Of a stretch of 64,000 bases of DNA, positions 1 through 19,266 are shown piece by piece. Every line of letters begins with the position of its first letter. Positions within the stretch are counted from its first letter, which is position 1. Source of the DNA: Alteromonas sp. BL110 (GTDB lineage: Bacteria > Pseudomonadota > Gammaproteobacteria > Enterobacterales > Alteromonadaceae); assembly GCF_003443615.1 (NCBI RefSeq), contig NZ_CP031967.1, forward strand, positions 2,542,001-2,606,000, written 5' to 3'. The position numbers and the translations under genes are program-made. The notes beneath the pieces were generated by a model. That model did not search any database. It was not told the origin of the DNA and saw only the letters and a list, made by a program, of their open reading frames with translations.

Positions 1-4
1 GTTT

Positions 5-123
5 TTCCTGGCAGCCATAGCGATACGGTACCACCTGACTCCATTCCGAACTCAGAAGTGAAACGTATTAGCGCCGATGGTAGTGTGGGGTTTCCCCATG
101 TGAGAGTAGGACACTGCCAGGTC
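5..123 (+). rRNA. rrf: 5S ribosomal RNA (normal copy)
   Basis: The sequence matches the bacterial 5S pattern along its whole length: the terminal helix CCTGGCAG at 7-14 pairs with CTGCCAGG at 114-121, and the conserved CCGAACTCAGAAGTGAAAC block lies at 46-64. The length of about 119 nt is normal. The 16S and 23S genes of the operon should lie just left of the window. The exact ends are uncertain by a few bases. A second, enlarged copy follows about 100 bases downstream. Confidence 0.96.
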
Positions 124-134
124 CCATTAAGAAG

Positions 135-158
135 AACCCGCCTAACGGCGGGTTTTTT
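135..158 (+). terminator. Rho-independent terminator of the first 5S gene
   Basis: The stem AACCCGCC/GGCGGGTT closes a TAAC loop and runs into six T residues at 153-158. It sits 12 bases after the 5S 3' end, so it most likely ends the rRNA operon transcript. A near-copy follows the second 5S. Confidence 0.9.
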
Positions 159-180
159 GCTTTCTGCAGCAAAGAAAAAG

Positions 181-214
181 TAATGGGGTCAGAGTCGCGA
201 CTCTGACCCCATTA
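181..214. repeat. Perfect 34-base palindrome, REP-like
   Basis: Each half reads TAATGGGGTCAGAGTCG, and the complement follows without a spacer. The core GGGGTCAGAGTCG and its complement return at 492-517 after the second 5S. GC-rich palindromes of this kind resemble the targets of REP-associated (RAYT, IS200-like) transposases in gammaproteobacteria. That link is an inference; no transposase gene lies in the window. Confidence 0.8.
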
Positions 215-227
215 TTCTTCCATTTTT

Positions 228-431
228 TTTCTGGCAGCCATAGCGATACGGTACCACCTGACCGACATGTCGGCCCATCGCGTGGCGACCAACCACATCC
301 CGAACTCAGAAGTGAAACGTATTAGCGCCGACCGGTGACCGGCGCAGGGATAGTGGGATAGTGTGGGGTTCCGGTGACCGGCCCAGCCCCATGTGAGAGT
401 AAGACGGGCTGGCCCTCCAGACTGCCAGGTC
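228..431 (+). rRNA. Enlarged 5S rRNA copy with four insertions
   Basis: Aligned with the copy at 5-123, this locus keeps nearly every 5S base but is about 204 nt long. Net insertions are about 31 nt after position 262 (hairpin loop C of helix III), 24 nt after 331 (loop E region), 15 nt after 370 (tip of helix IV) and 15 nt near 405-421 (3' side of helix V). Outside the insertions only two or three bases differ. The terminal helix is intact: CTGGCAG at 231-237 and CTGCCAGG at 422-429. The insertions are GC-rich and carry short inverted repeats. It could be a functional enlarged 5S, a pseudogene, or an RNA with another role. Large insertions in 5S are known from the archaeon Halococcus but are not usual in this group. 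Confidence 0.75.
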
Positions 432-445
432 CCATTAAGAAGAAC

Positions 446-466
446 CCGCCTAACGGCGGTTTTTTT
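446..466 (+). terminator. Rho-independent terminator of the enlarged 5S
   Basis: The stem CCGCC/GGCGG with a TAAC loop is followed by seven T residues. It is a copy of the terminator at 135-158 with one G lost from the 3' arm. The flank 430-445 also repeats the flank of the first copy, so gene and terminator were duplicated together. Confidence 0.85.
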
Positions 467-491
467 GCTTTCTGCACCTGAAAAAGTAATT

Positions 492-517
492 GGGGTCAGA
501 GTCGCGACTCTGACCCC
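492..517. repeat. Second copy of the REP-like palindrome
   Basis: A perfect 26-base palindrome with halves GGGGTCAGAGTCG and complement, matching the core of 181-214. Its outer arms are not conserved (AAT on the left, TCT on the right). It lies 15 bases from the stop codon of the convergent acyl-CoA synthetase gene and may act as a transcription barrier between the two. Confidence 0.8.
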
Positions 518-531
518 TCTATTTGTTGGGG

Positions 532-2268
532 CTATGCTTCGGTTTCTAGGGTTTGCTTTTTTAGCGTTTCTATCATGTGTTCACGCATTTTAAACTTTTG
601 CAGCTTCCCTGTTACTGTCATGGGGTATTCTTTTACTACACTGATGTATTTAGGCACTTTAAAATAGGCTAGCTTTGATTTTAAGTAGTCACGTATTTGC
701 TCTTCGTCTATGTGTCGATTTTCTTTTGCTTTAATCCAAAGACACACTTGCTCGCCATATTTATCATCGGGTATACCAAATACAGCGGCATCGGATACAT
801 CGTCATGCTGGTATAGTACTTCTTCAATTTCTCGTGGATAAATATTCTCGCCACCGCGAATGATCATGTCTTTTATTCTGCCTACAATAGTGACATAGCC
901 TTCCTCATCCATTTCACCTAGATCGCCAGAATGAAGCCAGCCTTCGTTGTCTATAGTAGCTTTAGTTTTAGCTTTATCTCCCCAGTAACCCTTCATTACA
1001 CAATAGCCTCTTGCACAAATCTCACCTGGCTCACCAATTGGAACAGTGTTGCCCTGTGCGTCGATAATTTTAACCTCTGTATGAGGCATAGCTCGGCCTA
1101 CCGTTTTAACCTGCTTCTCAAAGGGAGAATCAATATCTGTAATATGATTGATAGGGCTGCATTCTGTTTGACCATAACCTATAACGACTTCGGTCATGTG
1201 AAATGCACTATGGACCTTACGCATTAGTTCCTCAGGACATGTACTTCCGGCCATAACGCCGGTTCTCAAGCTAGATAAGTCAAAGCTTCTAAAATTCGGG
1301 AGCTCTAGCTCGGCAATAAACATAGTAGGTACACCGTGTAAGCCTGTACACTTTTCTTGTTCTACCGTGCGAAGGGTTGTTTCAGGGTCGAATGAGTCAC
1401 CAGGGAATACCGCACATGCACCAGACGCTAAACAGACTAAGTTACCCAATACCATACCGAAACAATGATAAAGCGGTACGGGTATGCAAAGTTTATCTTT
1501 ATGCGTAAATCTCATTGCTTCTGATACTAATAAACCATTATTCAATATATTGCGATGAGTGAGTGTTGCGCCTTTCGGGTTACCAGTCGTACCTGAGGTA
1601 AATTGAATGTTGATGTTATCATCGGCATTTAATGTCGTTTCAATGGCTGATAGCTGAGATCGTAGAGCATCAGTAGGCTCTATTTGGAGTTTTGAAAACG
1701 CCTGCAAGCCGTCTTCATGGGTTTCACCGATAGTATATACATGCTTAAGAGAGGGGAGCTTCGAGAGCGATAGCGCCGCGTCCGTCTGACTCTGGCCCCC
1801 GGTATCTAGTTCCGGGGCTAATTCTTTCAAAATGGCGATGTAGTTTGACTGTTTAAAAGACTGTGCCATCACTAAGTGCTTTACCCCGACATTGTTAATA
1901 GCAAAGGCTAATTCATCTGGGCGATAAGCGGGATTGAGACATACCATAATCGCGCCAATTCTTGCCGTTGCCATTTGTACAAGCGACCACTCAATGTTAT
2001 TTGGAGACCATATCCCCACACGGTCACCGGGCTCTACGCCATTAGCAAGTAAACCACAGGCCACTCGTTCTACTTCACGCCAGTATTGCTGATAGGTCCA
2101 GTGAACACTTTGGTGCTTTACGATGATCGCTGGGTTATCGGCATAATTGTCGACAACCTTTTTAAAGTATTGGCCAATTGTTAGCGTGGTGAGTTCGGCA
2201 TTGCTTGGACCGCTAAACTCACTTATTTGTAGTGGAAGTGCAGTGTCTGGCTGTATCTTTGATTCCAT
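532..2268 (-). CDS. Acyl-CoA synthetase (AMP-forming)
   Basis: A 578-residue adenylate-forming enzyme that should activate a carboxylic acid, probably a fatty acid, to its CoA thioester in the cytoplasm. Seen: the phosphate-binding loop TSGTTGNPKG at 224-233, YGQTEC at 365-370, HSGD at 446-449, the hinge GRIKDMIIRGGENIYP at 463-478, and the C-terminal TGK with the catalytic lysine at 555. All core motifs of a full-length AMP-binding enzyme are present. It is closest to the medium/long-chain FadD-like and ACSF2-like group; substrate cannot be set from sequence. It stands alone, convergent with the 5S genes, and no degradation partner is adjacent. Confidence 0.9.
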   Translation of the reverse strand: MESKIQPDTALPLQISEFSGPSNAELTTLTIGQYFKKVVDNYADNPAIIVKHQSVHWTYQQYWREVERVACGLLANGVEPGDRVGIWSPNNIEWSLVQMATARIGAIMVCLNPAYRPDELAFAINNVGVKHLVMAQSFKQSNYIAILKELAPELDTGGQSQTDAALSLSKLPSLKHVYTIGETHEDGLQAFSKLQIEPTDALRSQLSAIETTLNADDNINIQFTSGTTGNPKGATLTHRNILNNGLLVSEAMRFTHKDKLCIPVPLYHCFGMVLGNLVCLASGACAVFPGDSFDPETTLRTVEQEKCTGLHGVPTMFIAELELPNFRSFDLSSLRTGVMAGSTCPEELMRKVHSAFHMTEVVIGYGQTECSPINHITDIDSPFEKQVKTVGRAMPHTEVKIIDAQGNTVPIGEPGEICARGYCVMKGYWGDKAKTKATIDNEGWLHSGDLGEMDEEGYVTIVGRIKDMIIRGGENIYPREIEEVLYQHDDVSDAAVFGIPDDKYGEQVCLWIKAKENRHIDEEQIRDYLKSKLAYFKVPKYISVVKEYPMTVTGKLQKFKMREHMIETLKKQTLETEA

Positions 2269-2560
2269 TACTTCTTGCCTCCATGTGCATACGCATATGA
2301 TTTAAATGTTAATTTAGATAATCGCCATCATGATTTTTAGGAAAAAGTACACAATAACAATCTTCGCGCTTATTACAGAGTGCGCTATTGAATAAACAAA
2401 ATATTTAATCTTTATTAACAATATGGTTGCAAACGCGTTTTGTCGACAAGATGTTAGTCGTATACGGCGCTGTTTAACGAAAAATATTAACGTTTCGTCG
2501 CAGCTCATTATCTGATTGGAACAACTAGCGGATTTAACGGAGCTTATTTGTTGGGAGAAA
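2269..2560. other. Intergenic, upstream of acyl-CoA synthetase
   Basis: About 290 bases between the acyl-CoA synthetase start and the terminator of the EF-hand gene. It should hold the synthetase promoter on the minus strand. It is AT-rich; I see no gene-like frame, repeat or strong operator. Confidence 0.4.
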
Positions 2561-2589
2561 ATAAAAAGCCCCGCATTTTCCGCGGGGCT
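2561..2589 (-). terminator. Terminator of the EF-hand gene
   Basis: Read on the minus strand, AGCCCCGC pairs with GCGGGGCT over a 7-base loop and is followed by TTTTTAT. It lies 36 bases past the stop codon of the EF-hand gene. Confidence 0.85.
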
Positions 2590-2624
2590 ACATAGTTGGG
2601 AATACTATGCGTTACTTAGTTCAT

Positions 2625-3203
2625 TTATTCTGATTCAATCTCTTCAAAATAGGTACGGTATTCCATACGGGTTATGTATGAATCACCATCTTCATCCATT
2701 GAGTCGAAGTCGCCCTCAACATCAGCTACTTCTAGTTCTTTTTCACTGATTTTACCGTCGCTGTCCATATCGATTTCAGTAAACTTAGAGTTAGCTGTTG
2801 CAGACATCTCAGTACGCAGTTCTTTATTTTTTTCCGAAATCATTTCGTTATCAGCTTTAGAAAACAGCGCTGGATTGCCTTCTTCAGTTAGCACTGCATC
2901 TGTTGTTCCTTCTGCTTGAACTTGTGTAATAACCTCATCACTGAACATAGAGGGTTTTTCATCAACAAATTTGTTGAACTCTGCGCGGCTAACCATACTG
3001 TCGCCGTCGGTATCCATTTTTGCTACTAATTTGCTGTCAATAGAACCTGACGATTCTGAACCTACTATGTAGCCATTACCGTCTTGGTCGAGCGCATTAA
3101 AGCTCTTTGAAATTTTTTCTTCATGATGGCCTGCGAATGCTGACGCAGAAAGTGTAGCTGCAACAACAGCACTAGTAATCATACTTAACTTTGTGATCTT
3201 CAT
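2625..3203 (-). CDS. Secreted EF-hand calcium-binding protein
   Basis: A 192-residue protein with a signal peptide (MKITKLSMITSAVVAATLSA, cut near AFA) and four EF-hand loops: DQDGNGYIVGSE, DTDGDSMVSRAE, DMDSDGKISEKE and DEDGDSYITRME. It should bind calcium in the periplasm or outside the cell. The start at 3203 is chosen because AGAAGGAA lies just upstream and the signal peptide begins there; an in-frame codon 33 bases earlier would add a charged leader. The protein is acidic apart from its leader. It is a single-gene unit with its own terminator. The role (calcium buffer, sensor or structural protein) is not known. Confidence 0.85.
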   Translation of the reverse strand: MKITKLSMITSAVVAATLSASAFAGHHEEKISKSFNALDQDGNGYIVGSESSGSIDSKLVAKMDTDGDSMVSRAEFNKFVDEKPSMFSDEVITQVQAEGTTDAVLTEEGNPALFSKADNEMISEKNKELRTEMSATANSKFTEIDMDSDGKISEKELEVADVEGDFDSMDEDGDSYITRMEYRTYFEEIESE

Positions 3204-3458
3204 AATCAAATTCCTTCTGTTTCTCTTTGCGAACACGGGCTATCAATTGCCCTAATCACTAAATTGAACGCATGTTGATTGAAGTTAATACTTCACATCA
3301 ACCTATTTAGCTACTCACAAATATCTTATTCACTTGTCGTGCCAATGAGATAAGTCATTGAAAATATGAGTAATAGAAAAAATGGGAATAGATTTAGAGT
3401 GTAACGTTTTTGTTAATTTGTCACGAAGCCTGAAAGATCTTCATACAAATGAACGGTG

Positions 3459-5828
3459 TCAAAACAGGGATAGTTGAGTGTTAGCTATGCGTTCAAAACT
3501 AAGGGATAACATTGGCAATATGCTATCAGCTATGGGTTTTATTTGTTTCTCTATATAGTGGTCATAGTCAATCGGGGCAGAAATAGTTTCTATTGTTTGT
3601 GGCCCTTGTACTGTGATTACATAGGCTATAGACGTATTAGATTGGTAGCGAAGTGGTAAACCCTGCTTCTCAAATAGCTTGTCGGCCCGTCTTGCCGCTT
3701 TTACATGAGGGGGAAGGGATTTAACGTACGATGAAAGAGGTTTTCTGAGTCGTTTTTTATATACCAAATCGTCATCCATCTTCCCTGATTTTACTGCGTT
3801 TAGCGTTTTATTGATGTATTGCTCAACAGGTTCATTGGCAAACACTCTTTTGTATAGTTCGTATTGGAACATTTTAGCAAGCACTGTCCAATCCGAACGT
3901 ACGTTCTCTAAGCCTTTAAAGATAAGCTCACCATTTTTCATCCCTGCGTAGCGTTTTTTACTACCTTCCGAAGACCCACGAATTGTTGGCATAAAAAAGG
4001 TAGAAAAGTGAGATTCGAACTCAATTTCCAAATGGCAATCAATGGCGAATTTGCGCTTAAGTAACTCAGTCCACTTCTGATTAATAATTTTGGCGAGCTC
4101 GCGACCTGTTTCACAAGGTGAACCTAATGCAGTATTCCCTTCAACATGCACAAAAGTTGAATCGGTATCACCGTAAATAACTGTATAGCCTAGTTCCTCA
4201 ATCCAACTCGCGGTAGTTTGCATAATCTCATGCCCTCGCAAGGTAATTGAACTCGCAAGACGGGGATCGTAGAAAGGACAGCCTCCACTACCAAGCACTC
4301 CGTAGAAGGAGTTCATTAATATCTTAATTGCTTGAGATCGAGGTGCGTCTTTCTGTTTTTTGGCTTCGTCACGCTGAAGCCAAAGGTTTTCAATGATTGA
4401 AGGCAGAAAATGAAATTCACGGCTAAATACTGCACTTTTGAAGCCTTCTATCGCAGTAGCTGGAGACTTGAGGCCTTCTGCGAGCCCTAACGGGTCGATT
4501 TTGAACGTTCGAATAATAGAAGGGTATAGGCTCTTAAAATCGAGTACTAGAACATCTTTGTACAGGCCAGGCTGGGAGCGCATGACATAACCGCCAGGAC
4601 TCGCTAAACCGCCATTTTCAGGCCTCACTCCAGCGACATAAGACTTGCGGTGTAGCTTGGGCAAATAAACATTTAAAAACGCCGCCACCGAGCCTCCCGG
4701 GCGGCTCATATCTAAACCGGTAAGAATGCTGCGCAATGCCAGAAAATCAATAAATTGGGTTTTGCTCTCAATGCGGTTTACCAGTTCCGTGTCTTTAAAG
4801 TTGTAGTTAGCAAGTGCAATAGGGTCGTTGTGATAAAGGCGCTTTATCGCTTCAAGCTTGTCAGTAGCTTGTATAAGCTTATTTTCACTAAGCAGTTCTT
4901 CGGAAACATTGTCGAGAGAGAATGACTCAAATTGATAGGTCATGGTTTTGAGTGCTTCAATACCATCAATCACGCATCGGCCAGGTACATCAACGATAGT
5001 TTGATCTTCCCATTGTCTTACCAAAGCCTCACGGCCGTGGCGGCCAATTGCAAACTTAAGCGCATTCGCTTTAGCGCGGCGGGCGAGCACAGCCATATCA
5101 AACTGCTTAACATTCCAACCCAAAATTATGTCTGGGTCGTAAGCGGTAAGGTGTGAAAAAAAGGCTTCTAGTAGTGCTTTTTCCGACCCTACTGTAACGA
5201 GCGTATATGGGCTGTCTTCTTGCTCCTGTAATGTTTGTCCACTAAAACTTGGTGGGCAAACGAGCAATACTACGCTTTTTCCTTCGCCCGCTAGCGCAAT
5301 GCTGAATAACTCTTCGTGCTCATTACATTCAATATCTATACTTAACGATGTGAAAGCAGTTCTGAAATGACAAGGTCTGATCTGCGCATTTTCTATAACA
5401 AGTTGTGACGTGTCATCTAGAGATTGAGGGGTAACAAACTCCACCGCACCATATACAAAACGCTCCATCAAATAGCGATCGGCAACGCGAATGTCTGCTT
5501 CATACAATACAATACTATGCTCTTGGGCGCGCTGACGAAGCTGATGCATCTGTGATTCTGTGGCGGTCTTTACCGTAGCCACAGGAGATTGCTCTAAAGT
5601 GTGAAATCCATCTTCTGAAATTATGATATTAGCTGGAATGCGAGCAGCAATGTTGCGCAATGAAGCACTCTGTTCTAGGGACACAAAGCAAGTCGGTTTT
5701 TGAGGTGAAGATATTAATCTAGCGGTACCACTGGCGGTTTTAACCCATAGCTCAACATAAACTTTACCTTGCCGGGTAAACGTATTTTTATTGAGTATAA
5801 ACCCTTGCTGTATTATTGGGGCTGACAT
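3459..5828 (-). CDS. polB: DNA polymerase II (family B)
   Basis: A 789-residue family B polymerase, close to the 783 residues of E. coli Pol II, used in repair and replication restart. Seen in order: exonuclease motif I (SLSIDIECNEHEE), exo II (ILGWNVKQFD), exo III (YNFKDTEL), polymerase motif A (DFKSLYPSII), motif B (KILMNSFYGVLG) and motif C (YGDTDS). Proofreading and polymerase centres both look intact. In E. coli polB is SOS-controlled, but I found no 16-base CTG-N10-CAG LexA box upstream. The start has no good ribosome site, and TTGACA lies about 40 bases upstream on the minus strand, so the leader may be very short. Confidence 0.96.
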   Translation of the reverse strand: MSAPIIQQGFILNKNTFTRQGKVYVELWVKTASGTARLISSPQKPTCFVSLEQSASLRNIAARIPANIIISEDGFHTLEQSPVATVKTATESQMHQLRQRAQEHSIVLYEADIRVADRYLMERFVYGAVEFVTPQSLDDTSQLVIENAQIRPCHFRTAFTSLSIDIECNEHEELFSIALAGEGKSVVLLVCPPSFSGQTLQEQEDSPYTLVTVGSEKALLEAFFSHLTAYDPDIILGWNVKQFDMAVLARRAKANALKFAIGRHGREALVRQWEDQTIVDVPGRCVIDGIEALKTMTYQFESFSLDNVSEELLSENKLIQATDKLEAIKRLYHNDPIALANYNFKDTELVNRIESKTQFIDFLALRSILTGLDMSRPGGSVAAFLNVYLPKLHRKSYVAGVRPENGGLASPGGYVMRSQPGLYKDVLVLDFKSLYPSIIRTFKIDPLGLAEGLKSPATAIEGFKSAVFSREFHFLPSIIENLWLQRDEAKKQKDAPRSQAIKILMNSFYGVLGSGGCPFYDPRLASSITLRGHEIMQTTASWIEELGYTVIYGDTDSTFVHVEGNTALGSPCETGRELAKIINQKWTELLKRKFAIDCHLEIEFESHFSTFFMPTIRGSSEGSKKRYAGMKNGELIFKGLENVRSDWTVLAKMFQYELYKRVFANEPVEQYINKTLNAVKSGKMDDDLVYKKRLRKPLSSYVKSLPPHVKAARRADKLFEKQGLPLRYQSNTSIAYVITVQGPQTIETISAPIDYDHYIEKQIKPIADSILPMLSLSFERIANTQLSLF

Positions 5829-6265
5829 GAATTTGTTTTTACTAACCGCTTCTTTAACTGTGTCAACTTCTTAGGGCTACCCTAAGAGCGTGGACGTTGA
5901 TTGAATTTATATAACCCTCCACCTGCGAATTCAGTACAGAGCATGAAAGGTACAAAAGACGTGTTCTATCAACATCAACGACCTTAGTATAGCGTTTGTT
6001 ATCACCGGCTCCTATAGATCTCTATTCGACAGATATGTTTGTTTTTGTAAGCAGAGCAAGTTAGAACGGAACGTGTTCTAATTATCTTGCATGAAAGTGA
6101 AGGTATCAGACGAATAAGATTATGCTGCGTTTACACGCCGGCATTATCGAGTAACGGCGTTCTCGATACAAGGCAGTCGTACCAAAGCTATTGTATTACC
6201 CCCTCTAGGGAGAGCGCGACTCAGTGAAGATGTAAAATATGCTGGCTAGAAAAGGTGATGACGAT
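5829..6265. promoter_or_regulatory. Divergent polB / MBL control region
   Basis: This gap of over 400 bases must hold both promoters. Two inverted repeats stand out: TTAGAAC (6061-6067) with GTTCTAA (6075-6081), and TATCGAG (6145-6151) with CTCGATA (6162-6168). The decamer ACGTGTTCTA occurs at 5959-5968 and again at 6071-6080. Both repeats look like binding sites for a dimeric regulator, but no family can be named. Confidence 0.35.
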
Positions 6266-7297
6266 ATGGAGTATCTATTCGACAAACAGGTAGAGCCGGG
6301 CGAGCTTATAGAAGTAGCCGATGGGGTACTTTGGCTAACTATGCCCCTTCCTTTTGAACTCGACCACATAAACTTGTATTTAATCCGCGGTGAAGGCGGC
6401 TGGGTGGTGATTGATACTGGCATCGGGACGTCCACCACCAAATCTCTCTGGATGCGTATATTTGAACAACTAGATGCACCAATTGTTGGTGTTATTGTTA
6501 CGCACTTACATCCTGATCATGTAGGGTTAGCAGGTTGGATAGCGGATACATATAACGTACCTTTTTATATGACCCAAACTGAATATTTCACTGCACGAGC
6601 CTTCGCAGCAGGCAGAAATGGCGCTACTAACACAAGGGATGTACTGTATTACCAGCGGGCAGGGCTTGATGATCCAATGATAGCAAAGCTCACCTCTGGC
6701 GAGGGAAACGGTTACAGCAGTGTGGTGTCGCCACTTCCCATAAGTTATACCCGTTTAAAACATGGCATGACGTTATTTCTTGGCGATAACGAATGGGTGG
6801 TTATGATTGGACGAGGTCATTCTCCCGAGCACGCCTGTCTTTACAATGCAAAGAAAAATATTCTTATCTCTGGCGATCATATTTTACCAATCATCACACC
6901 GAATATTGGTGCCTATTCAACGGAGCCTGACGCTAATACCTTAGCCGATTACCTGAACACATTGCCTCAATTTAAAAGCTTGCCGAGAAATACAACGGTG
7001 TTACCCGCACACAAACTTCCTTTTATTGGTCTTCACGAGCGGGTAGACTCGCTCATTGCTCATCATCACGAGCACCTTCAAGCGTTGTTAAAGGCTTGCA
7101 AGGAACCTAAAGCAGTAGTGGATCTATTGCCGGTTATGTTTAGGCGCAAGCTTTCAAGCCGTAACATGGTATTCGCTGTGGCGGAGTGTTTGTCTCACCT
7201 TAATTACTTAGTAAGCGAAGGGGATATCTCGCGAGCACTCAATGATGAAGGTGTGTATACATTTAAGGTGTGCGCAGCGAGTAAACTAGCGAGTTAG
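6266..7297 (+). CDS. MBL-fold metallo-hydrolase
   Basis: A metallo-beta-lactamase-fold hydrolase of about 343 residues, probably cytoplasmic. Seen, counting from the upstream codon at 6239: the metal site HLHPDH at 89-94, GRGHSPEHACLY with further histidines at 194 and 198, SGDH at 211-214, and LPAHKLPF near 265. These supply a two-metal site. The C-terminal 80 residues form an extra helical part, as in glyoxalase II-like and thioesterase-like members. Substrate is unknown. The start at 6266 is preferred because AAAAGG lies about 10 bases upstream; the ATG at 6239 lacks one. The stop overlaps the convergent kinase gene by 4 bases. Confidence 0.85.
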   Translation: MEYLFDKQVEPGELIEVADGVLWLTMPLPFELDHINLYLIRGEGGWVVIDTGIGTSTTKSLWMRIFEQLDAPIVGVIVTHLHPDHVGLAGWIADTYNVPFYMTQTEYFTARAFAAGRNGATNTRDVLYYQRAGLDDPMIAKLTSGEGNGYSSVVSPLPISYTRLKHGMTLFLGDNEWVVMIGRGHSPEHACLYNAKKNILISGDHILPIITPNIGAYSTEPDANTLADYLNTLPQFKSLPRNTTVLPAHKLPFIGLHERVDSLIAHHHEHLQALLKACKEPKAVVDLLPVMFRRKLSSRNMVFAVAECLSHLNYLVSEGDISRALNDEGVYTFKVCAASKLAS

Positions 7298-8571
7298 GAA
7301 TCACTGGCGGGCACTGTAGGGGCTTTAGGTATAGTAATTTCTACGACAGTTCCTTTGGCCTCTTTACTGCTAATAGATATTTTTCCTTGATGCTGTTCTA
7401 TGGCGGTATAAGCCACAGAAAGGCCCAGCCCTTGACCTTGCCCTTCCGGCTTGGTGGTAAAAAAAGGTTCGAACACGCGTTTTAAGTGTTTTGCTGGGAC
7501 GCCGCAACCTGAATCCAGTATTTTAATCGTTACTAATTGAGCGGCATCAATTACGGTGAGTTTGATGAAGCCTTTATCGTCTATCGCTTGCGCAGCGTTT
7601 ATCATTACGTTCATCAGCGCCTGTTTCAATGGCCCTGGATTCCCCATAACCTCGACCTTTTCTTGCTCACATTCAATTTTATATTGGGGGGCGCTGTATT
7701 GAGCGGAGATGAGCGTGATTAGCTGATTACATATTGCGCATATATCTACTGTTTGCATTCCTTCAGCAGTCTCTAGTGAGAAGTTTTTAAGGTTCTCAAC
7801 AATGTCCTTTACCCGTGTAAGCCCTTCAGTAGACTCTGCAATTAGCTCGGTGATATCGTCTTTCAGTAGGTCATAGTGATTCGCCTCAAATAAGGCGTCA
7901 ACTTGTTCTTTAAGCTCGTCAGTAAAGAGCTCCATTTGCCCTTTAACACCGTCGCAAATCGCAAGAAGGTGTGAAGCGTATTGACCTAGCGTATTGAGGT
8001 TGGCGTTTACAAAGCCAATCGGATTGTTAATTTCATGAGCTATACCTGCTGCGAGTTGCCCGGTAGAGGCCATTTTTTCTGCCTGAATAAGCTGGCTTTG
8101 GGCAGTATCGAGTTTACGAATAAGCTTTCGCTGCGCTTCGTGCTCTTTTTTTAGTGCTTCGGAAAGTTTTTGCTGGGCTCTGAAATAACTCGCTTGGGCG
8201 GTGACATCTTGCAGAAATATACAGGCTAAACGCTGCCCGGTTTTTTTATCTTTAATAGGCAATATTTCCATATTTTGGTACATCTGCGTCTCTTCGCCTG
8301 TTATAGGCCGAGAGCTTTTAAATGGAAATATATGGGGTCGTTGCTCCCAATAGCTAAAACTTGGGTGCTGTAGCACGAATACTGACTTTAGCCTGCGTTT
8401 TAGGAACTTACCTTGCCCCTGAAACAATTCCACCACGGGCGTGTCTTGATAACAGTCACGCATTTTATGGGGGAGACGATCTAAAAAGAAGTCGTTTAGA
8501 TAAACGACGTTAAAGTTTTCATCAACTACACCAATTCCGACAGGTAACTTACCTACCAGTTGTTCAAACAT
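7294..8571 (-). CDS. PAS-domain sensor histidine kinase
   Basis: A 425-residue soluble kinase without membrane segments. Residues 1-125 form a PAS-type sensor, 130-165 a predicted coiled coil, then the phosphorylation site GIAHEINNP (His179) and an HATPase domain with N box (NVMINAAQAI), G1 (DSGCGVP) and G2 (GQGQGLGLSV). It is the last gene of a three-gene unit: its start overlaps the CheC gene stop by one base (TAATG), so translation is coupled. It should phosphorylate a receiver, plausibly the single-domain regulator at the head of the unit, while CheC removes the phosphate. The input signal is not evident. Confidence 0.9.
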   Translation of the reverse strand: MFEQLVGKLPVGIGVVDENFNVVYLNDFFLDRLPHKMRDCYQDTPVVELFQGQGKFLKRRLKSVFVLQHPSFSYWEQRPHIFPFKSSRPITGEETQMYQNMEILPIKDKKTGQRLACIFLQDVTAQASYFRAQQKLSEALKKEHEAQRKLIRKLDTAQSQLIQAEKMASTGQLAAGIAHEINNPIGFVNANLNTLGQYASHLLAICDGVKGQMELFTDELKEQVDALFEANHYDLLKDDITELIAESTEGLTRVKDIVENLKNFSLETAEGMQTVDICAICNQLITLISAQYSAPQYKIECEQEKVEVMGNPGPLKQALMNVMINAAQAIDDKGFIKLTVIDAAQLVTIKILDSGCGVPAKHLKRVFEPFFTTKPEGQGQGLGLSVAYTAIEQHQGKISISSKEAKGTVVEITIPKAPTVPASDS

Positions 8572-9155
8572 TATGCGAGTAACTCATCCAATGTGTTTTT
8601 CATGCGAGCAAGAGATTCATCGTCTAAACAAAACACAACGCGCATGCTAAACGAGGAAATTGCAATAACGAACTGTACTTCCATTACCAAACTATGCTGC
8701 CACTGCAGCTCATCAAAGTTCGCTTTATCGGGTAAAAACAATGTAGGCATATTTAAGTTGGTGGTAAGCTCTAACTGGTCAGAAAGACCAGCTAAACACG
8801 CGCCCGCTAAAATATTGCAAAGCTCCAAAATGATTTCTTGAATATCTTCCTTACTTAATGGTTCGTCGTAATCCATCAAAGTAGCGACTTCACTTAAACC
8901 CGCTTGTGACAACACAGACATGACTTCACCGTGCACATCGCCTAAAAAGGACTGGCGGGTATAAAAGGCATCTTCGGTTTCAAATAGAAGACTGTAAAGT
9001 TGAGTGGGCGTGACGGCTGAAATTTTAGGTATAGAAATGTCTATTTTCGTTTCAATAAGTTGAGCAAGCGAGTTCGCGGCTTGTCCCATTGAAATATTCA
9101 GCAGTTCTTGAAGGGCATCTCTTTGCTCTTCATCCAGCGGTAGTACGATGCTCAT
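8571..9155 (-). CDS. CheC-family phosphatase
   Basis: A 194-residue CheC/CheX-type protein that should dephosphorylate a response regulator. The first active-site signature is complete: Asp13, Glu17, Asn20 and Pro43 have exactly the spacing D-x3-E-x2-N-x22-P of the family. A second, pseudo-symmetric site (ELCNILAG) keeps E-x2-N but has Glu in place of Asp/Ser four residues before. No flagellar or chemotaxis genes surround it. The reading frame overlaps the response regulator by 4 bases (ATGA) and the kinase by one, so the three proteins are made together and probably act on one another. Confidence 0.88.
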   Translation of the reverse strand: MSIVLPLDEEQRDALQELLNISMGQAANSLAQLIETKIDISIPKISAVTPTQLYSLLFETEDAFYTRQSFLGDVHGEVMSVLSQAGLSEVATLMDYDEPLSKEDIQEIILELCNILAGACLAGLSDQLELTTNLNMPTLFLPDKANFDELQWQHSLVMEVQFVIAISSFSMRVVFCLDDESLARMKNTLDELLA

Positions 9156-9517
9156 AGATACCCCAGCTCAAACAGTGCCATGGCCAACTCTTCTTTATCT
9201 AAGGGCTTACGAAGAAATCGCTTAGCGCCTAAAGACATCACAATTTTTTGTTTTTCCGGCTGAAAATCAGCGCTTATTACAATAACGTTTGGCATGTTAG
9301 ACCTTGCGTGTAAAAACTCTAACACGCCAACGCCGTCTACTTCAGGCATAGTAAGATCTAAAAGAATGAGTGCAAACTCGCTTTCGGAAAGTGAATTTAT
9401 CGCTTCTTGCCCGTTTGTTGCTTCGGTTATGTCATACTCCAAATCTTGAGGAAGCGAGCGAATAACGCTGCGCCTCGACAGCTTGGAATCATCAGCAACT
9501 AGTACAGAAAGTGACAT
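9152..9517 (-). CDS. Single-domain response regulator
   Basis: A 121-residue stand-alone receiver of CheY type. Seen: the acidic pair Asp9-Asp10, phosphoacceptor Asp54 in LLDLTMPE, Ser82 in the switch region and Lys104 in RKPLD. There is no output domain, so it signals by protein contact. It leads the operon, with a strong ribosome site (AGGAGG, 6 bases before ATG), and overlaps the CheC gene by 4 bases. Its likely partners are the kinase and CheC phosphatase encoded behind it; the downstream target is unknown. Confidence 0.92.
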   Translation of the reverse strand: MSLSVLVADDSKLSRRSVIRSLPQDLEYDITEATNGQEAINSLSESEFALILLDLTMPEVDGVGVLEFLHARSNMPNVIVISADFQPEKQKIVMSLGAKRFLRKPLDKEELAMALFELGYL

Positions 9518-9782
9518 TTACAGCCTCCTTGAGCGGCATTCAATGTGATGCCTTTTTAGTAAAGTATGTGCAACTTTTGCGTTACTGCAACAATACCTTT
9601 AAAAATTATTGTTGTAGTCATGCTCTACCTGCTTGTTAACTAATTTGAGTATATGACAAAGGTGACTTTTGTGCGTATTAGACTTTTAGTTGAATTGATA
9701 GCGGGGTTTATAGAGTTAGGTGTTAAGAGAGTTAAAGAGATGAAGTGGGCATGTAGCTAAGTTTAAACATGCCCTTGCATTT

Positions 9783-10961
9783 TTAGCCTTTTTGCATTGC
9801 CTGCATTTTTTCTAGTGCAGCTGGCATTGCATCGACATAACGTTTAACGTCAGCTATTTTACCCATGCTTACACGAGACCAATTATTATACGTACGATAG
9901 ATGCCTCGGATAAGTACGTCTTTTTCAGCCATAGCTTGACGGAAATACTCGGCATTGCCATCACCAAGATTAACAAAAATAAAGTTAGTACTAGAGGGGA
10001 GGGCTGTCAAACCGTTAGCTTTAACGGCATCCATAACCATAGATTTACCTTCATAAATTTTTTCTTTAGAAAACGTTAAAAAGGCATTGTCATTGTAGCT
10101 TGCTATTGCAGCAGCAAGGCCCGCTTGATTCAATGTGTAGCCGCCCATACCGTAGCGATTAATCCACTCGGTATTCTCCTCAGAAGCAATAAGATAGCCC
10201 ACTCGCATACCCGCTAAACCATAAATCTTCGAGAAGGTTCTCGCTACGATGATATTGTGGCCTGCTTTAACAAGTGGAATCATTGAGTGTTTTGGTGGCT
10301 CATCGATGAGTTCGTTATAGGCCTCGTCAACCAAAACAAGTGTCTTTTTAGAGGCTTTGATACAAAATTCGCGAAGCTTATCGGGGTCTAGCACTTTACC
10401 TGTCGGGTTGTTAGGGTTACAGATATGTACCATACCGATGGAGTCATCAATTGCGGCATACATGGCGTCAAGGTCGATGTCGAGATCTGCTGTATTGGCT
10501 ATTCTGACTATTTCTGGTGCGCCCTGCTTTTCTGGTGCTTTAGACGTGGTATCCCAAAAAAGATCCGGCCCAAGAATTTTACCATTCTTACTTGCAGCTA
10601 CAGCAGCATAGGAAAGAATTGGGCTGGAACCGGCACTTAAAGAAATATTCTTACGCGTAATGCCATGACGCTCGGCTATCATATCTAACAGGGTCATAGC
10701 GGCGGGATAAGCGTAATACGCACCTCCTTGAGCAGAGGCTTGAGCAATGGCTTCCAAGGCTTTTGGACTAGGTCCAAAAGGGTTTTCATTAGCATTTAGT
10801 TTCGCTACACCAGGTTTTGGTCCATAAATGACCGATATCGCTTCAGTTGCTGCAGCACTTGCAGATTGAGCGCTAACCAAGTTACTAAAACCTGTTGCTC
10901 CTACGGCTGATGCTGCTACCGAGCCACCTAAAAATAAACGTCTTGAACGGTTATAACTCAC
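9783..10961 (-). CDS. Tat-exported PLP-dependent aminotransferase, HisC-like
   Basis: A class I/II aminotransferase related to histidinol-phosphate aminotransferase, about 392 residues. The N-terminus carries a twin-arginine signal (SRRLFLGGSVAASAVGA), so the folded, cofactor-loaded enzyme should go to the periplasm. Seen: LNANENPFGPS substrate loop, NPNNPTG, the aspartate in LVDEAYNE, and the PLP lysine in ARTFSKIYGLAG. The start is the GTG at 10961: AAAAGGAGAAT sits 7 bases upstream and it places the Tat motif at the very N-terminus; a longer frame to 11033 would overlap the upstream gene and hide the signal. It follows the TauE-type gene by 20 bases. The substrate is unlikely to be cytoplasmic histidinol phosphate. 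Confidence 0.88.
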   Translation of the reverse strand: MSYNRSRRLFLGGSVAASAVGATGFSNLVSAQSASAAATEAISVIYGPKPGVAKLNANENPFGPSPKALEAIAQASAQGGAYYAYPAAMTLLDMIAERHGITRKNISLSAGSSPILSYAAVAASKNGKILGPDLFWDTTSKAPEKQGAPEIVRIANTADLDIDLDAMYAAIDDSIGMVHICNPNNPTGKVLDPDKLREFCIKASKKTLVLVDEAYNELIDEPPKHSMIPLVKAGHNIIVARTFSKIYGLAGMRVGYLIASEENTEWINRYGMGGYTLNQAGLAAAIASYNDNAFLTFSKEKIYEGKSMVMDAVKANGLTALPSSTNFIFVNLGDGNAEYFRQAMAEKDVLIRGIYRTYNNWSRVSMGKIADVKRYVDAMPAALEKMQAMQKG

Positions 10962-10980
10962 AGATATTCTCCTTTTTATT

Positions 10981-11802
10981 TTAAATGGCTTTATAGAACA
11001 TTGCGCTTGAAACAATGACGAGATAAATGCCAAACAATCGCTTTAGCTTCTTTTCACTAAAGTTATGCGCCATCTTCGCACCGATAGGCGCAGTAAAAAT
11101 TGCGCCTATACTGATAGCGATTAGCGCTGGAATGTTGATGTATCCGATAGTGCCAACAGGAAGCGAAGCCGTCTCGGGATGTTTCATAAATAGAAAGCCA
11201 ATGGCACCAGGAAGGCCTATCAGGAAGCCAACACCTGCAGCGGTGGCAACCGCTTGCTGAATAGTGCGTTGGCACATCACCATTGTGATGACTGTGGGCG
11301 TACCGCCTCCTATACCGAGTAACGCAGAAAAGCCGCCTAATACAAATGCCAGCACCGCTTTTCCTATTCCTTTAGGCATATCGAATACAAGACCGGGGCG
11401 CACAACAAATTCAGGGAAAAGAAAATATACGGAGTAAAGCAGTACACCTGCAGCGAATACTACGGTTAAGCCATTTGCGCTAGAGTTATTAGCTATTAGT
11501 AGACCACCTCCAACACCAAGAATAAGCCAAATGCTCCAGGACTTAAGGATGTCAAAATCTACGGCGCCTTTGGCGCGGTGCGCCATAACAGAACGTGCGC
11601 TAGATACGACAATTGATGCCAATGAGGTGCCTATTGCAACTTTCACCAACGATTCAGAAGGGGGGGTAAAGAAAGGGAAAACAGCAAGTAGTGCCGGAAC
11701 AACAACAAAGCCTCCACCATTGCCGAATAGACCTGCGGTAATACCAGCAATGGCACCGGTTATACACAAGGTAACGACAAACCACAGTAGTTCTACTTCC
11801 AT
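10981..11802 (-). CDS. TauE/SafE-family membrane exporter
   Basis: About 273 residues with roughly eight hydrophobic segments and the glycine-rich repeats of the family (LFGNGGGFVVVPAL near the N-terminus and LLGIGGGTPTVITM in the second half). The family exports or takes up sulphite, sulphonates and other small organic acids across the inner membrane. The ATG at 11802 is preferred; a GTG 18 bases upstream would add six residues. It precedes the Tat-exported aminotransferase and follows the TonB-dependent receptor on the same strand, suggesting handling of a common compound. Confidence 0.88.
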   Translation of the reverse strand: MEVELLWFVVTLCITGAIAGITAGLFGNGGGFVVVPALLAVFPFFTPPSESLVKVAIGTSLASIVVSSARSVMAHRAKGAVDFDILKSWSIWLILGVGGGLLIANNSSANGLTVVFAAGVLLYSVYFLFPEFVVRPGLVFDMPKGIGKAVLAFVLGGFSALLGIGGGTPTVITMVMCQRTIQQAVATAAGVGFLIGLPGAIGFLFMKHPETASLPVGTIGYINIPALIAISIGAIFTAPIGAKMAHNFSEKKLKRLFGIYLVIVSSAMFYKAI

Positions 11803-11883
11803 CAGTTTTCTACCCCACACAATACAACTTTTAACATTGAATGACCTTTTAGGTTTTACTTATATAAAGTTATTTAAAAACGT

Positions 11884-11908
11884 AAACACCGGCTTGCGCC
11901 GGTGTTTT
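11884..11908 (-). terminator. Probable terminator after the TonB receptor
   Basis: The stem ACACCGGC/GCCGGTGT (11886-11905) has a 4-base loop. On the minus strand it is followed by TTTACGTTTTT, an imperfect T tract. It lies 11 bases past the receptor stop, so the TauE-aminotransferase pair probably has its own promoter or depends on readthrough. Confidence 0.6.
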
Positions 11909-11918
11909 CTGCACTCGA

Positions 11919-14513
11919 TTAGAAGCGAGCTGCTAGACGGGTGTAGTAGTACCCACCTTGCCAGTCGACTATGGAACCGGAATCGTATAATTCGCCACAG
12001 CACGCGTCGCCGTTAGTACTCAAATCTGGGTAGTTATCAAATAGATTTCTAACACCGACTGAAAGAGTAAGGTTTTCGCTAATCAGGTAAGAGCCTTCGA
12101 TATCAAACATAAATTCATCGCCGAAGGTTTGAATACTTGTTGGGTCGACGCCATCATCGCTGCCTGCATTTTCGTATTCGCCAAAGTAGCTTAGGCGAGC
12201 CACCGCAGACCATACGTCGTAGCTGTGAGTGACCGAGAACACACCGCGCATTTCAGGTCGGCTATTTTCAAAATCGAATTGATCTTCTGCATCTAAATAT
12301 TCGCTGGGGTCAGAGTCAAACTCAGTTTTATTGTAGTTAACCGAGCCGGTTAAAACAGTTGAGCCATACTTGGATTCCATCTTGTATGTAGCTACGACAT
12401 CCAAGCCCTCTGTCACTGTATCGAATGCGTTTTGGAAGAAGAAAACGCCGCCAATAGATTCAGCGCCAGAAACGTTTGCTCCCGCAAGCGCTAGGTAGTT
12501 CTGGTAAGCATCATAGCCTGCAGCATCTGGGTCGGTGACCACAGTAGTAGAAACATCACGTGTAGATACAGAGTAGAGACGGTCCTCTAATTTGATATTG
12601 TAGTAATCAACGGTAAGAGTTAAGTCACCATAGTTAGCCGTCATTCCTAATGTAAAGTTGGTCGACTTTTCAGGTGAAAGCTCTTCTGCGCCGAGTGCCT
12701 GCGCAACTTCGCCGCCCGCAGGGAATAAGCCCGTAGCTACAGGGAAACCATCAGGTAAGCGAGTCGATACGTTAGTAGTACCCTGTTGGCCAGGCGTTGG
12801 CGCTCTGAAGCCTGTACCAAATGAAGATCTAAAGCCTACATCGTCATTCAATTGATAAAACGCCGCGACTTTGTACACTACCTCAGAGCCAAAATCTGAA
12901 TAGTCCTCGTAGCGCAATGCAGCTTGGGCAAATAGCTCGTCAGTAATGTCTCCTGAAATGTCGGTGTACACCGCATAAGAATCACGTTCGTATGAACCTG
13001 AATAGTCAGGTGAGTAACCCGGGAAACCGTTAGAACCTACGCCAACTACGGTATAAACAGCATCATCGGGATCTGCACAGTTTAATGTCGAACCGTTTGC
13101 GATAACGGCTAGCCCTTCGGCAGTAGCGGTGGTTCCGTCACAGAATCCATATGGGTCAGAGGTAGCGTAAGGGCCGGCAAAATATGAGCTTTCCTCTCCT
13201 TCAGAAATTTCATAAGACTCATCTAGATAGCTAGCTCCAAAAGCGAGTACGTACTCACTCAAGTCGTAGGTGAAGTCGGCCTGAATTTGGGCCTCTTCGT
13301 TAGTCAGATCACCGGGCTCAAATGACGTAGGTGATTCATTGCCCAGAGAAGGGTTAATGGTATTGGCGAGCGTGTAGGAAATCTCGTTGTTGCCATAACG
13401 ACCGCTGATATCGTAAGTAAGATCACCCGACATACCTTTTATGCCGCCTACCATTGAATAATCAGTGACATCACCGAAGAAGCGTGGCGTGAAACCACCC
13501 GGGAAGAATTCTGTTGGATTCCAAATAGAGCCGTCTTCAAGCCGAATGTCTTCAATAGTGCCGTTACCCGGATAACGATAATAGAAAGAGCCGTCGCCTT
13601 CACTTTCAGAATAGTTACCAAAAGCGTATAACTCTGCTTCAGCGCTCAGCGCGTACCCAGCGTTGAAAAAAACGCGTTTGCCGCTGGTATTGGGCTGCCC
13701 CCAAGGTTGCACCACATCAGAACCGTGAACACTGTTTGCCATAGCAGTCGCATCTGCAATATATTCGGCTGATTGCTCGTCTACACAGAACCAAGGCTCA
13801 CAGTATTGTTCGCCTCTATAGGTCGCTTCACTATCTGAGTATTCGGCCGAAATACTGAAGAAGCCATCGTCACCAAGTGCGAAACCTTTATTTCCTGTAA
13901 CGGTAATCTGGTCGCCATCGCCTTCATAGTAGCTACCATAATCGATGGTGAAAGAGCCGCCTTCGGTATTGTTTTTAAGTTGGAAGTTAATTACCCCCGC
14001 GATGGCATCCGAACCATACTGAGCTGCTGCACCGTCTCGCAATACTTCAACACTTTGGATTGCTGCTGTAGGAATGGTTGCGATATCCGGGCCTTGGGTA
14101 CCAGAGCCTCCGATTGAAACAAGCGCTGCTCTGTGACGACGTTTCGAGTTCACTAAAACCAAGGTTTTGTCTGTGGGCATACCTCGAAGTGTTGCTGGAC
14201 GAATAAAGGTGCCGCCGTCTGAAATAGGCTGCCTGCCCACAGAGTAGGAAGGTACAAGGGTCATCAGAACGTTGTTCATATCGGTAAACGCAACGGCTTC
14301 AACGTCTTCTGCGGTTAACACGTCAACGGGAACGGGCGAACTAGTGACTGAGCGTGGCGCACCGCGAGCGCCCACAACGGCTATACGCTCTAAGTCTTTC
14401 GCTTCTGCGGTTTCTTCGCTGGTTTCTTGAGCCTGTACAAGCATTGAAGTAGTGAAAAGGGTTAGTCCGGTAAGTGCGTAACGTACTGCAGTGTGGAGTT
14501 TCTTTTGTTTCAT
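11919..14513 (-). CDS. TonB-dependent outer membrane receptor
   Basis: An 864-residue receptor with signal peptide (cut near LVQAQE), a TonB-box-like stretch (ERIAVVG), an N-terminal plug with LRGMPTDKTLVLVNSKR and QSVEVLRDGAAAQYGSDAIAGVINF, and a large barrel ending in the terminal phenylalanine of outer membrane proteins (TRLAARF). It imports a ligand across the outer membrane using TonB energy. The start at 14513 (ATG, GGGAAC upstream) is preferred over a TTG four codons earlier. Ligand unknown; siderophore, peptide or another small solute are possible. It is divergent from a LysR regulator and upstream of a TauE-type carrier and a Tat aminotransferase, which suggests uptake of an amino or sulphonated compound. 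Confidence 0.93.
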   Translation of the reverse strand: MKQKKLHTAVRYALTGLTLFTTSMLVQAQETSEETAEAKDLERIAVVGARGAPRSVTSSPVPVDVLTAEDVEAVAFTDMNNVLMTLVPSYSVGRQPISDGGTFIRPATLRGMPTDKTLVLVNSKRRHRAALVSIGGSGTQGPDIATIPTAAIQSVEVLRDGAAAQYGSDAIAGVINFQLKNNTEGGSFTIDYGSYYEGDGDQITVTGNKGFALGDDGFFSISAEYSDSEATYRGEQYCEPWFCVDEQSAEYIADATAMANSVHGSDVVQPWGQPNTSGKRVFFNAGYALSAEAELYAFGNYSESEGDGSFYYRYPGNGTIEDIRLEDGSIWNPTEFFPGGFTPRFFGDVTDYSMVGGIKGMSGDLTYDISGRYGNNEISYTLANTINPSLGNESPTSFEPGDLTNEEAQIQADFTYDLSEYVLAFGASYLDESYEISEGEESSYFAGPYATSDPYGFCDGTTATAEGLAVIANGSTLNCADPDDAVYTVVGVGSNGFPGYSPDYSGSYERDSYAVYTDISGDITDELFAQAALRYEDYSDFGSEVVYKVAAFYQLNDDVGFRSSFGTGFRAPTPGQQGTTNVSTRLPDGFPVATGLFPAGGEVAQALGAEELSPEKSTNFTLGMTANYGDLTLTVDYYNIKLEDRLYSVSTRDVSTTVVTDPDAAGYDAYQNYLALAGANVSGAESIGGVFFFQNAFDTVTEGLDVVATYKMESKYGSTVLTGSVNYNKTEFDSDPSEYLDAEDQFDFENSRPEMRGVFSVTHSYDVWSAVARLSYFGEYENAGSDDGVDPTSIQTFGDEFMFDIEGSYLISENLTLSVGVRNLFDNYPDLSTNGDACCGELYDSGSIVDWQGGYYYTRLAARF

Positions 14514-14911
14514 TAGTGTTCCCAATCGTGCTTATTGCTACTTAATTTATGAATGCGGATTAATTGAACCTGCACTCTTTCTAGGCACGCACGAGCACCA
14601 CATTGATGCATACACATCTTGTAATTGTTATTGTGTAACTCGTGTACAGGGACTAGGCTAAAAACTCTTTGCCGCTGGTGGAAGAAAGAAGAATATTCAG
14701 GGGTATAAGAAAAATATTGACCCCTCCGGAAGCTCACAGTTTTCCTAGTATTAGACTTAAGTAGTGTTTAGGGTGAGATTTTTTTAACCCGTATGCGAAG
14801 GCTTTTGTTTACATTTTAGCTTCATATAACCTATTGGAATGGCATATACCTTGCTGACTTTCCCTGCAATGACGTCAGGCTATTCTCTATTGCCTTCTAA
14901 AAGGGGATTAA
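14514..14911. promoter_or_regulatory. Divergent TonB receptor / LysR control region
   Basis: About 400 bases separate the receptor (minus) and the LysR gene (plus). This is the usual place for a LysR-type site acting on both genes. The LysR ribosome site AAAGGGGA lies just before its GTG start. I could not define a clear T-N11-A operator. Confidence 0.4.
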
Positions 14912-15892: not shown

Positions 15893-15935
15893 CCGAGCAC
15901 ACCGTATTTTCAATGAATCGAAAAAGTTGGCTAAC

Positions 15936-16643
15936 TCACGCTTCAGGTAGAACAATATCTACTAATACGGGTAGATGATCGGATAACACTTTAGTTTTCT
16001 CATTCTTGAGTTTCCTACATGACTTTACTTCAATATCTTCAGTTACCCAGACGCGATCGAGCGAAAATACGGGGAAGTTGCTTGGAAACGTGGGACCAAC
16101 CTTTTGCTGTAATAGCAAATTATTTAAAGCCCTAAATGCCTTTGAAAAAAACTGCCACTCATTAAAATCACCCGCTAGAAATAGCGGGGTTTGTTTTTCT
16201 CTTAAGCGTCGCGACAGATGTTCGTGAAGCAAAGAAAACTGCGAACGACGCTCTGGTTTTTTAAGCCCTTTATGAGTGTTTACCACTGTCAATGGGGTTT
16301 TTTCTGTCTTCAACTCAACGATTTGAACATTTCTTGGCTGTCGCCCAGTTTGACTTACATCTACAGTATCGTGCTCGAGCACATCAAAACGGGTCAAAAT
16401 TGCATTGCCATACCAACCATCTGATTCTCTGATTGCTGGAGAGGGAATTAATTTAAACGTGTTACCCGCACAGATGTCCTTTACATCTTGCGCTGTATCG
16501 CGTTCGGGCGGACGGGTATCCATTTCTTGAAGCAAAACCACGTCTGCGCCACTGTTTGCAAGAAACTGCCCAATACGCTTGTAGTCATGCTTCTTGTCTC
16601 TGCCAACTCCGCTGTGAATATTATAGGTTACTATGCGGCACAT
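15936..16643 (-). CDS. Endonuclease/exonuclease/phosphatase-family protein
   Basis: A 235-residue protein of the EEP fold. Seen: CRIVTYNIHSG at the N-terminus, VVLLQEMD with the metal-binding glutamate, FLAGDFNEW with the catalytic aspartate and asparagine, and SDHLPVLVDI at the end with the Asp-His pair. The family includes nucleases, sphingomyelinases and inositol phosphatases. There is no signal peptide. The start overlaps the phospholipase D/VTT gene by 13 bases, so translation is probably coupled. In such pairs a role in phospholipid or phosphodiester turnover is plausible, but not shown. Confidence 0.88.
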   Translation of the reverse strand: MCRIVTYNIHSGVGRDKKHDYKRIGQFLANSGADVVLLQEMDTRPPERDTAQDVKDICAGNTFKLIPSPAIRESDGWYGNAILTRFDVLEHDTVDVSQTGRQPRNVQIVELKTEKTPLTVVNTHKGLKKPERRSQFSLLHEHLSRRLREKQTPLFLAGDFNEWQFFSKAFRALNNLLLQQKVGPTFPSNFPVFSLDRVWVTEDIEVKSCRKLKNEKTKVLSDHLPVLVDIVLPEA

Positions 16644-19223: not shown

Positions 19224-19266
19224 TTGCTTATAAATTTAAAAATTCACTTTTAGGTAAGTTTTCTTT

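Follow-up and report, generated by a model that had tools for sequence, protein, structure and literature searches.

The window analysed here is a stretch of 64,000 nt from the genome of Alteromonas sp. BL110 (G000; 4.46 Mb, one contig). A normal 5S rRNA gene stands at its left end, with the end of a 23S gene read upstream (locus L009), and a second, enlarged 5S copy follows. The features of this region are listed below with their window coordinates.

7..122, plus strand: normal 5S rRNA gene (RF00001, 97.6 bits), last gene of an rRNA operon that begins upstream of the window
135..160, plus strand: terminator belonging to the normal 5S, of intrinsic type, formed by AACCCGCC/GGCGGGTT and a T run, with an 8-pair stem at 135-154 (assigned to the minus strand in the stem scan)
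179..216, no strand assigned: palindrome TGGGGTCAGAGTCGCGACTCTGACCCCA, REP-like, with a 17-pair stem, separating the normal from the enlarged 5S
228..431, plus strand: enlarged distal 5S copy, 204 nt, identified by RF00001 score, genome comparison and anchored comparison with the normal copy
262..299, plus strand: segment of insert 1, where 38 nt replace 7 in loop C, with the palindrome CCGACATGTCGG and a possible GTGG/CCAC hairpin
332..358, plus strand: insert 2 segment in loop E, 27 nt in place of TGG, with a CCGGTGACCGG hairpin, CGCAGGGA and an 8-nt direct duplication
371..386, plus strand: insert 3, where 16 nt replace 1 in the helix IV loop, with a second CCGGTGACCGG hairpin
402..420, plus strand: segment of insert 4, where 19 nt containing GGGCTGGCCCTCCAG replace 4 on the 3' side between helices V and I
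446..466, plus strand: terminator of the enlarged copy, its stem down to 5 pairs (446-459) from the 8 of the normal 5S
492..517, no strand assigned: second REP-like palindrome, beyond the enlarged copy

The enlarged copy and its setting

Anchored comparison within the window gave 204 nt for the copy at 228-431 against 119 nt for the normal copy at 5-123. Four segments differ in length (7 to 38, 3 to 27, 1 to 16 and 4 to 19 nt), and insertions of at least 13 nt occur four times in the conserved core, with net gains of +31, +24, +15 and +15. The initial annotation had given exactly these figures, which proved right to the base, and it had correctly placed the insertions in the loop of helix III, in loop E, at the tip of helix IV and on the 3' side of helix V. 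On reading, there is outside the four segments a single change (C to T at the first helix I base of the enlarged copy), and within the fourth segment an A stands instead of G directly after GAGTA. The end helix had been called intact, and indeed the termini TCTGGCAG/CTGCCAGG are retained and able to form helix I; the terminator, likewise said to be kept, is present with the shortened stem given above. Insert 2 interrupts loop E because it replaces the TGG of the 5' strand GATGGTAG of this loop. Inserts 2 and 3 have CCGGTGACCGGCSCAG in common, and by E. coli numbering we take the site of insert 3 to be the helix IV tip of the published descriptions considered below. The inserted segments have a G+C content of 71%, compared with 54% for the normal 5S and 44% for the whole window. 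A fold against a 5S covariance model had been proposed as a check, and here the enlarged copy reached 34.7 bits, below the cut-off of 38 bits for RF00001. When window positions 1-20000 were scanned with Rfam, 5S was the only family to reach its cut-off.

A regular expression context within an rRNA operon was not found. The enlarged copy lies downstream of the normal 5S gene with the terminator of that gene in front of it, and a sigma-70 consensus scan of window positions 1-600 returned no promoter-like site. Palindromes of the TGGGGTCAGAGT type were seen at 181-214 and 492-517. The TGGGGTCAGAGT half-site has 60 exact occurrences genome-wide, while the reversed control has none, and palindromes of this kind are typical of RAYT-associated REP elements.

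Copies in BL110 and in related genomes

The BL110 genome has eight 5S family matches, five normal and three enlarged. Reading of the five operon ends yielded four enlarged copies, located behind three of the five normal 5S genes: the 2542k operon, at which the window begins, and the 1700k operon have one each, and the 3368k operon has two. The operon ends at 2359k and 1364k each carry a single normal 5S. Both termini and helix I are retained in all four enlarged copies. Insert 1 is found in three of them; copy 2 at 3368k lacks it and has a normal 5' half. The window copy is identical to copy 3 at 3368k at 197 of 201 aligned bases and to the 1700k copy at 188 of 193. The 8-nt direct duplication GGGATAGT in insert 2 is present in the window copy and in copy 3 at 3368k, and absent from copy 2 at 3368k and from the 1700k copy. 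By its downstream DNA, the 1700k operon matches, as judged by eye, the 39k operon of G022, in which the second 5S is normal and the spacer differs. Because this matching operon holds a normal second 5S, the enlarged unit appears, judging from the sequences, to have taken the place of a normal second 5S at the 1700k operon.

Comparison with sister genomes, which the initial annotation had suggested, uncovered related elements in 10 of 59 Alteromonas genomes. With the 204-nt copy and sequence model R1 (the 3' half of the copy) as queries, insert-bearing elements were found in nine (G000, G034, G033, G030, G018, G058, G025, G047 and G046); the tenth carrier, G040, shows insert 4 alone at a contig edge. 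The count is a lower bound, since many draft assemblies stop inside an rRNA operon. The insert-4 pattern gave seven records in named genomes, among them Alteromonas lipotrueae MD_652 and Alteromonas sp. LOR, MMG017 and KUL106; matches in a Bacteroidetes MAG, Ectothiorhodospira and Streptomyces were taken as chance. Beyond the genus, a strict pattern search of 295 family genomes recovered three genomes, all Alteromonas, and models R1 and R2 reached more. Across 395 family genomes, R1 at an E value of 1e-11 added one genome, G110, and at an E value of 1 it weakly matched G246 among ten genomes of the genus of G110. Model R2, covering the insert-2 region, found nine of the 395 genomes at E values below 1e-9 (G110, G308, G246, G069, G000, G034, G030, G058 and G047); the next-best genome stood at 1.2e-6, and the weaker matches listed were 36 nt long, as expected from an insert-free normal 5S. 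Carriers outside Alteromonas thus comprise four genomes of two genera (G110, G308 and G246 of g3 and G069 of g12), and the insert-2 module is present in three genera. With Rfam, only the 5S and 23S families reached their cut-offs in nine loci of relatives, and none did so on an element. Among the plasmid matches listed for the insert-bearing part (30 of 50), only a 40-nt shared 5S core was found; the G058 element, as a query shifted by about 15 bases, gave no match in plasmid records, and two plasmid searches aimed at Pseudoalteromonas gave no record of that genus among the matches listed (60 of 203 and 15 of 227).

Since rRNA repeats are a usual site of assembly faults, an assembly or sequencing artefact had to be considered, and the initial annotation had named an assembly error as an outcome that would overturn it. 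The genome, however, holds four copies in one contig, each with its own downstream flank, and homologues occur in separately sequenced named strains, so that an artefact is very unlikely.

The elements fall into several types. In type A (G000, G034 and G033), helix I is kept, although weakened in G034; both termini are retained in G033 as in BL110. Type B (G018 and G058/G025), type C (G046 and G047) and type D (G030) have lost 5' parts of the 5S, amounting to nearly the entire 5' half in G018, G058, G046 and G030 and to the first stretch only in G047. In all three the 3' half is retained together with its insert-2 hairpin, and in types B and C insert 4 as well. Type B has a second palindrome ahead of this hairpin, and its helix IV contains repeated CCCAGCCAGTGTG-like units. 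In type C, helices III and II are separated by an additional run of hairpins. In G047 (L021, about 1431-1502) this run reads AAATGTGTCGGGAACACATTT, CGCGCTTTAGCGCG, CCCGAAGGG and GGGCAGGAGCCC, and it is nearly the same in G046 (L035). Seven head-to-tail copies of ATTGCTTCACAACG lie between element and terminator in G058 (L098, about 897-994), and three in G047 and in G046.

By eye, a terminator stands upstream of the element in 12 of the 14 carriers; in G246 and G040 the upstream side is a contig edge. One additional G034 remnant, at 2573k, comes after a deletion. At the G034 locus with polB and the acyl-CoA synthetase gene, as in the window, the 16S-tRNA spacer runs into an insert-2 remnant, and the 23S and the normal 5S are absent, possibly through an assembly collapse. 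In two rRNA operons of this genome (L096 and L097), 5S pieces appear to follow directly on the 16S-tRNA spacer; the absence of the 23S there reflects either a deletion or an assembly collapse. A 5S copy of G007 (L024:1470-1584) has a 5' half, CTTGGCGACCATAGCGTTTTGGACCCACC, unlike the other 5S copies of the genus that were read and a 3' half like theirs, and from its sequence may be a chimaeric 5S.

Descent, hairpin pairing and folding

Insert identities to G000 were taken as the best ungapped match in the locus. Inserts 2 and 4 together were identical at 34 of 34 positions in both G033 and G034, and insert 4 alone at 15 of 15 in G034, G033 and G040. For inserts 2 and 4, respectively, G047 showed 18/19 and 12/15 and G046 14/19 and 13/15. 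In the other genera, insert 2 was identical at 19/19 positions in G069 and 18/19 in G110. Fourfold degenerate sites of PolB are identical to G000 at 30% in G033 and 44% in G034. Over the 200 nt past the terminator of the element, 42-44% of columns agree with G033 and G034, which is the shuffled level (42-44%), and the spacers ahead of the element differ in length (71, 19 and 272 nt). The 23S-5S spacer agrees with G000 in 74% (G033) and 85% (G034) of columns and in 92% and 97% of aligned bases. It is probably itself constrained and is a slower yardstick than PolB, which makes the complete identity of the inserts less striking; on the sequences compared, the ends of rRNA operons may as such account for part of the insert similarity.

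A tree of PolB was built from the gene found in 25 of the 30 genomes asked; it was absent in the four carriers of other genera. All ten carriers of the genus fall into one clade of 15 genomes (ultrafast bootstrap 100, SH-aLRT 100), with type A in one subclade and types B and C in another. The other five genomes of this clade (G007, G041, G024, G022 and G021) gave no insert-bearing match, and the second 5S of G022, G041 and G021 is, on reading, insert-free. PolB is encoded twice in G021, at 2201612 and 3678604 (L161 and L184), and both genes score equally. The element or a remnant of it lies at the operon adjoining polB in seven of the ten carriers of the genus. That the variants follow the PolB subclades and share this polB-side location favours descent over frequent transfer; an exchange of elements via rRNA flanks is possible. 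In G069, the core around insert 2, which is identical to that of G000, is host-like: it has AACACGTTAGCGG of its own and matches the normal 5S of that genome.

The insert-2 hairpin occurs in the variants CCGGTGACCGG, CCAGTAACTGG and CCGATAATCGG and consists of a 4-pair stem and a 3-nt loop. Alignment A2, on which the pairing was assessed, consisted of 10 of 15 rows (it excluded the G046 row and, for G000 and G034, the second copies, and G308 and G069 were found later). All 36 cells were paired in 9 distinct rows, with compensatory changes on both sides at two of the four pairs, and 0-47% of cells were paired when the partners were slid to six other registers. Shuffles, which ignore relatedness, reached the covariation score in 1 of 500 cases and two doubly changed pairs in 45 of 500. 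G308, outside the alignment, reads CCGGTCCCCGG, keeping all four pairs with an altered loop. RNAalifold favoured a GCGCCG/CGGCGC stem over the CCRR/YYGG hairpin; this pairing was rejected, with 87% of cells paired and zero double changes.

Several sites share a CCRGTNACYGG-type 11-nt architecture in different sequences (CCGGTGACCGG, CCGGTTACCGG, CCGGTAACCGG, CCAGTAACTGG, CCGATAATCGG and CCGAGACTCGG). Such a hairpin could be a mini mobile module that has landed repeatedly in spare 5S genes, and the insert 2 shared by G000 and G069, set in a core matching the own normal 5S of G069, would fit this idea. On the other hand, only one of the nine CCGGTGACCGG sites in G000 lies outside the enlarged 5S copies, for which reason a genome-wide mobile repeat was dropped as a candidate, and insert 2 has the same insertion point and the same GGGATAGTG end in most aligned rows, which fits a single origin. 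We consider a mobile module unlikely.

In folding, the window copy was not clearly more stable than shuffled sequences (z -0.78, 42 of 200 shuffles as good); the normal 5S gave a z of -1.70, and the G047 element, at -2.79, is more stable than shuffles. The minimum free energy fold of the window copy (-75.7 kcal/mol) is without the 5S core, and forcing helices I-IV gave -66.7 kcal/mol, a cost of 9 kcal/mol. Copy 2 at 3368k folds with helices I-III formed. The latter fold, together with helix I and the termini retained in the four BL110 copies and in G033, would be in keeping with a functional expanded 5S rRNA that is transcribed, processed and incorporated into part of the ribosomes, which would make the ribosome population heterogeneous. 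Against such a role stand the five normal 5S genes of the genome, the replaced 5' strand of loop E, the window fold, the relatives without 5' parts and the location of insert 3, since the helix IV tip is described as sterically poor for insertion (Stepanov and Fox 2021, PMC7812874). Because the copy lies behind a terminator, the sigma-70 scan found no promoter for it and its best fold is not 5S-like, its ribosomal use is unlikely, and we give a functional 5S of this kind only a slight chance.

A maintained element or a pseudogene

The enlarged copy could also be a plain, untranscribed pseudogene. Gene conversion from one operon to another and the exchange of operon ends across species would then keep it similar, and template-switch (quasi-palindrome) mutation would make the palindromes and keep them perfect. 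Palindromes can indeed also stay perfect through template-switch mutation. The terminators ahead of the elements, the 5' parts missing from types B, C and D and the patchy presence are in line with this explanation, as are the resemblance of insert 3 to a copy of insert 2 and the signs of conversion in the pair of 1700k and G022 39k operons and in the normal 5' half of copy 2 at 3368k. Copies placed in a similar manner have been called 'likely not transcribed' and 'may represent pseudogenes' in the text of PMC7812874. Conversion with a normal 5S cannot, however, preserve inserts that the normal gene lacks, and yet the inserts of G000 and G033 match throughout; insert 2 is identical in another genus within a host-specific core, and the changed loop on a kept stem in G308 is easier to reconcile with a hairpin in RNA than with a palindrome in DNA only. 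We regard a pseudogene as a serious possibility and as the main rival.

Our best reading, which ranks ahead of the pseudogene although we hold it at somewhat below even confidence, is that the copy may be a maintained, 5S-derived, non-ribosomal structured element, an old offshoot of 5S that is vertically inherited at the second 5S position of rRNA operons. Host-like cores and losses could result from conversion with normal 5S, though the survival of the inserts could not, and we therefore place a maintained element first. The four BL110 copies, the homologues, the fit to the PolB tree, the paired insert-2 stem, the complete identity of inserts 2 and 4 and the G308 stem count in its favour; the window fold, the patchy presence, the small covariation set and the RNAalifold alternative count against it. 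Descent with paired, conserved hairpins suggests selection, and the terminator, the missing promoter and the patchiness suggest little or no transcription. The conserved inserts and the compensatory changes would speak for selection and the terminator and patchiness against it. The initial annotation had proposed that the gene may still be transcribed and selected. Some selection is plausible, the copy being repeated, kept in relatives and paired in its hairpin, whereas a working ribosomal 5S is not supported, given the terminator, the sigma-70 scan, loop E, the fold and the 5' losses. It is a tentative proposal, and less secure than the maintained element as such, that in a lineage of Alteromonas and its relatives a spare 5S has become a structured RNA outside the ribosome, whose loops gained hairpin modules that selection keeps in at least three genera.

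For a maintained element, we envisage that a duplicated distal 5S gene left ribosomal service and that hairpin modules were inserted at the helix III loop, loop E, the helix IV loop and beside helix V. Gene conversion would spread and homogenise the copies between operons, and selection on the folded RNA would keep the hairpins. Transcription reading through the upstream terminator would be the only source of the RNA, which would not enter ribosomes; at a guess, the RNA might act as a decoy for 5S-binding proteins. If transcribed and functional, the element would be a rare bacterial rRNA gene recruited for another task, with the recruitment caught at several stages (full-length, 5'-truncated and multi-hairpin) in marine bacteria that can be cultivated. 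As a pseudogene, it would illustrate the persistence and between-operon spread of insertion-bearing 5S copies and bear on whether published 'expanded 5S rRNAs' beside normal copies are real ribosomal RNAs.

Among known systems, palindromic repeats of the REP/RAYT type share spacers with the enlarged 5S; the insert hairpins are not such a repeat, given the distribution of CCGGTGACCGG described above. The word Alteromonas, counted from word start, is absent from the main text of PMC7812874, and a literature search of titles and abstract openings did not find insert-bearing 5S copies in this genus. That text reports 89 expanded 5S rRNAs with one to three inserted segments each and Pseudoalteromonas as the sole non-clostridial bacterial genus, so that the initial annotation was wrong in crediting the known enlarged 5S rRNAs with one insertion each. 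Its suggestion that four dispersed insertions are new may hold for their number and for the genus, while the kind had already been published for Pseudoalteromonas. As described there, distal 5S remnants with insertions occur behind terminators after normal 5S genes, including in Pseudoalteromonas. Like the BL110 copy, they have a 5S-like core and large insertions, usually follow a normal 5S with a terminator ahead and are sometimes multicopy. Compared by description, they lack one or both terminal parts, whereas both are present in the BL110 copies; 5' parts are missing from the elements in G018, G058, G030, G046 and, to a lesser degree, G047. The expanded 5S rRNAs of the same source (Halococcus, Thermoanaerobacterium, Pseudoalteromonas piscicida and others) share with the BL110 copy a complete 5S, helical insertions and in part a place beside normal copies, and differ from its four segments, interrupted loop E and location behind the terminator of the normal 5S. 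Measured against this text, insert-bearing 5S are already known, and what is new is the combination of four inserts with a broken loop E and both ends kept. The BL110 element joins both categories, with the full termini of an expanded 5S and the position and broken motif of a distal remnant.
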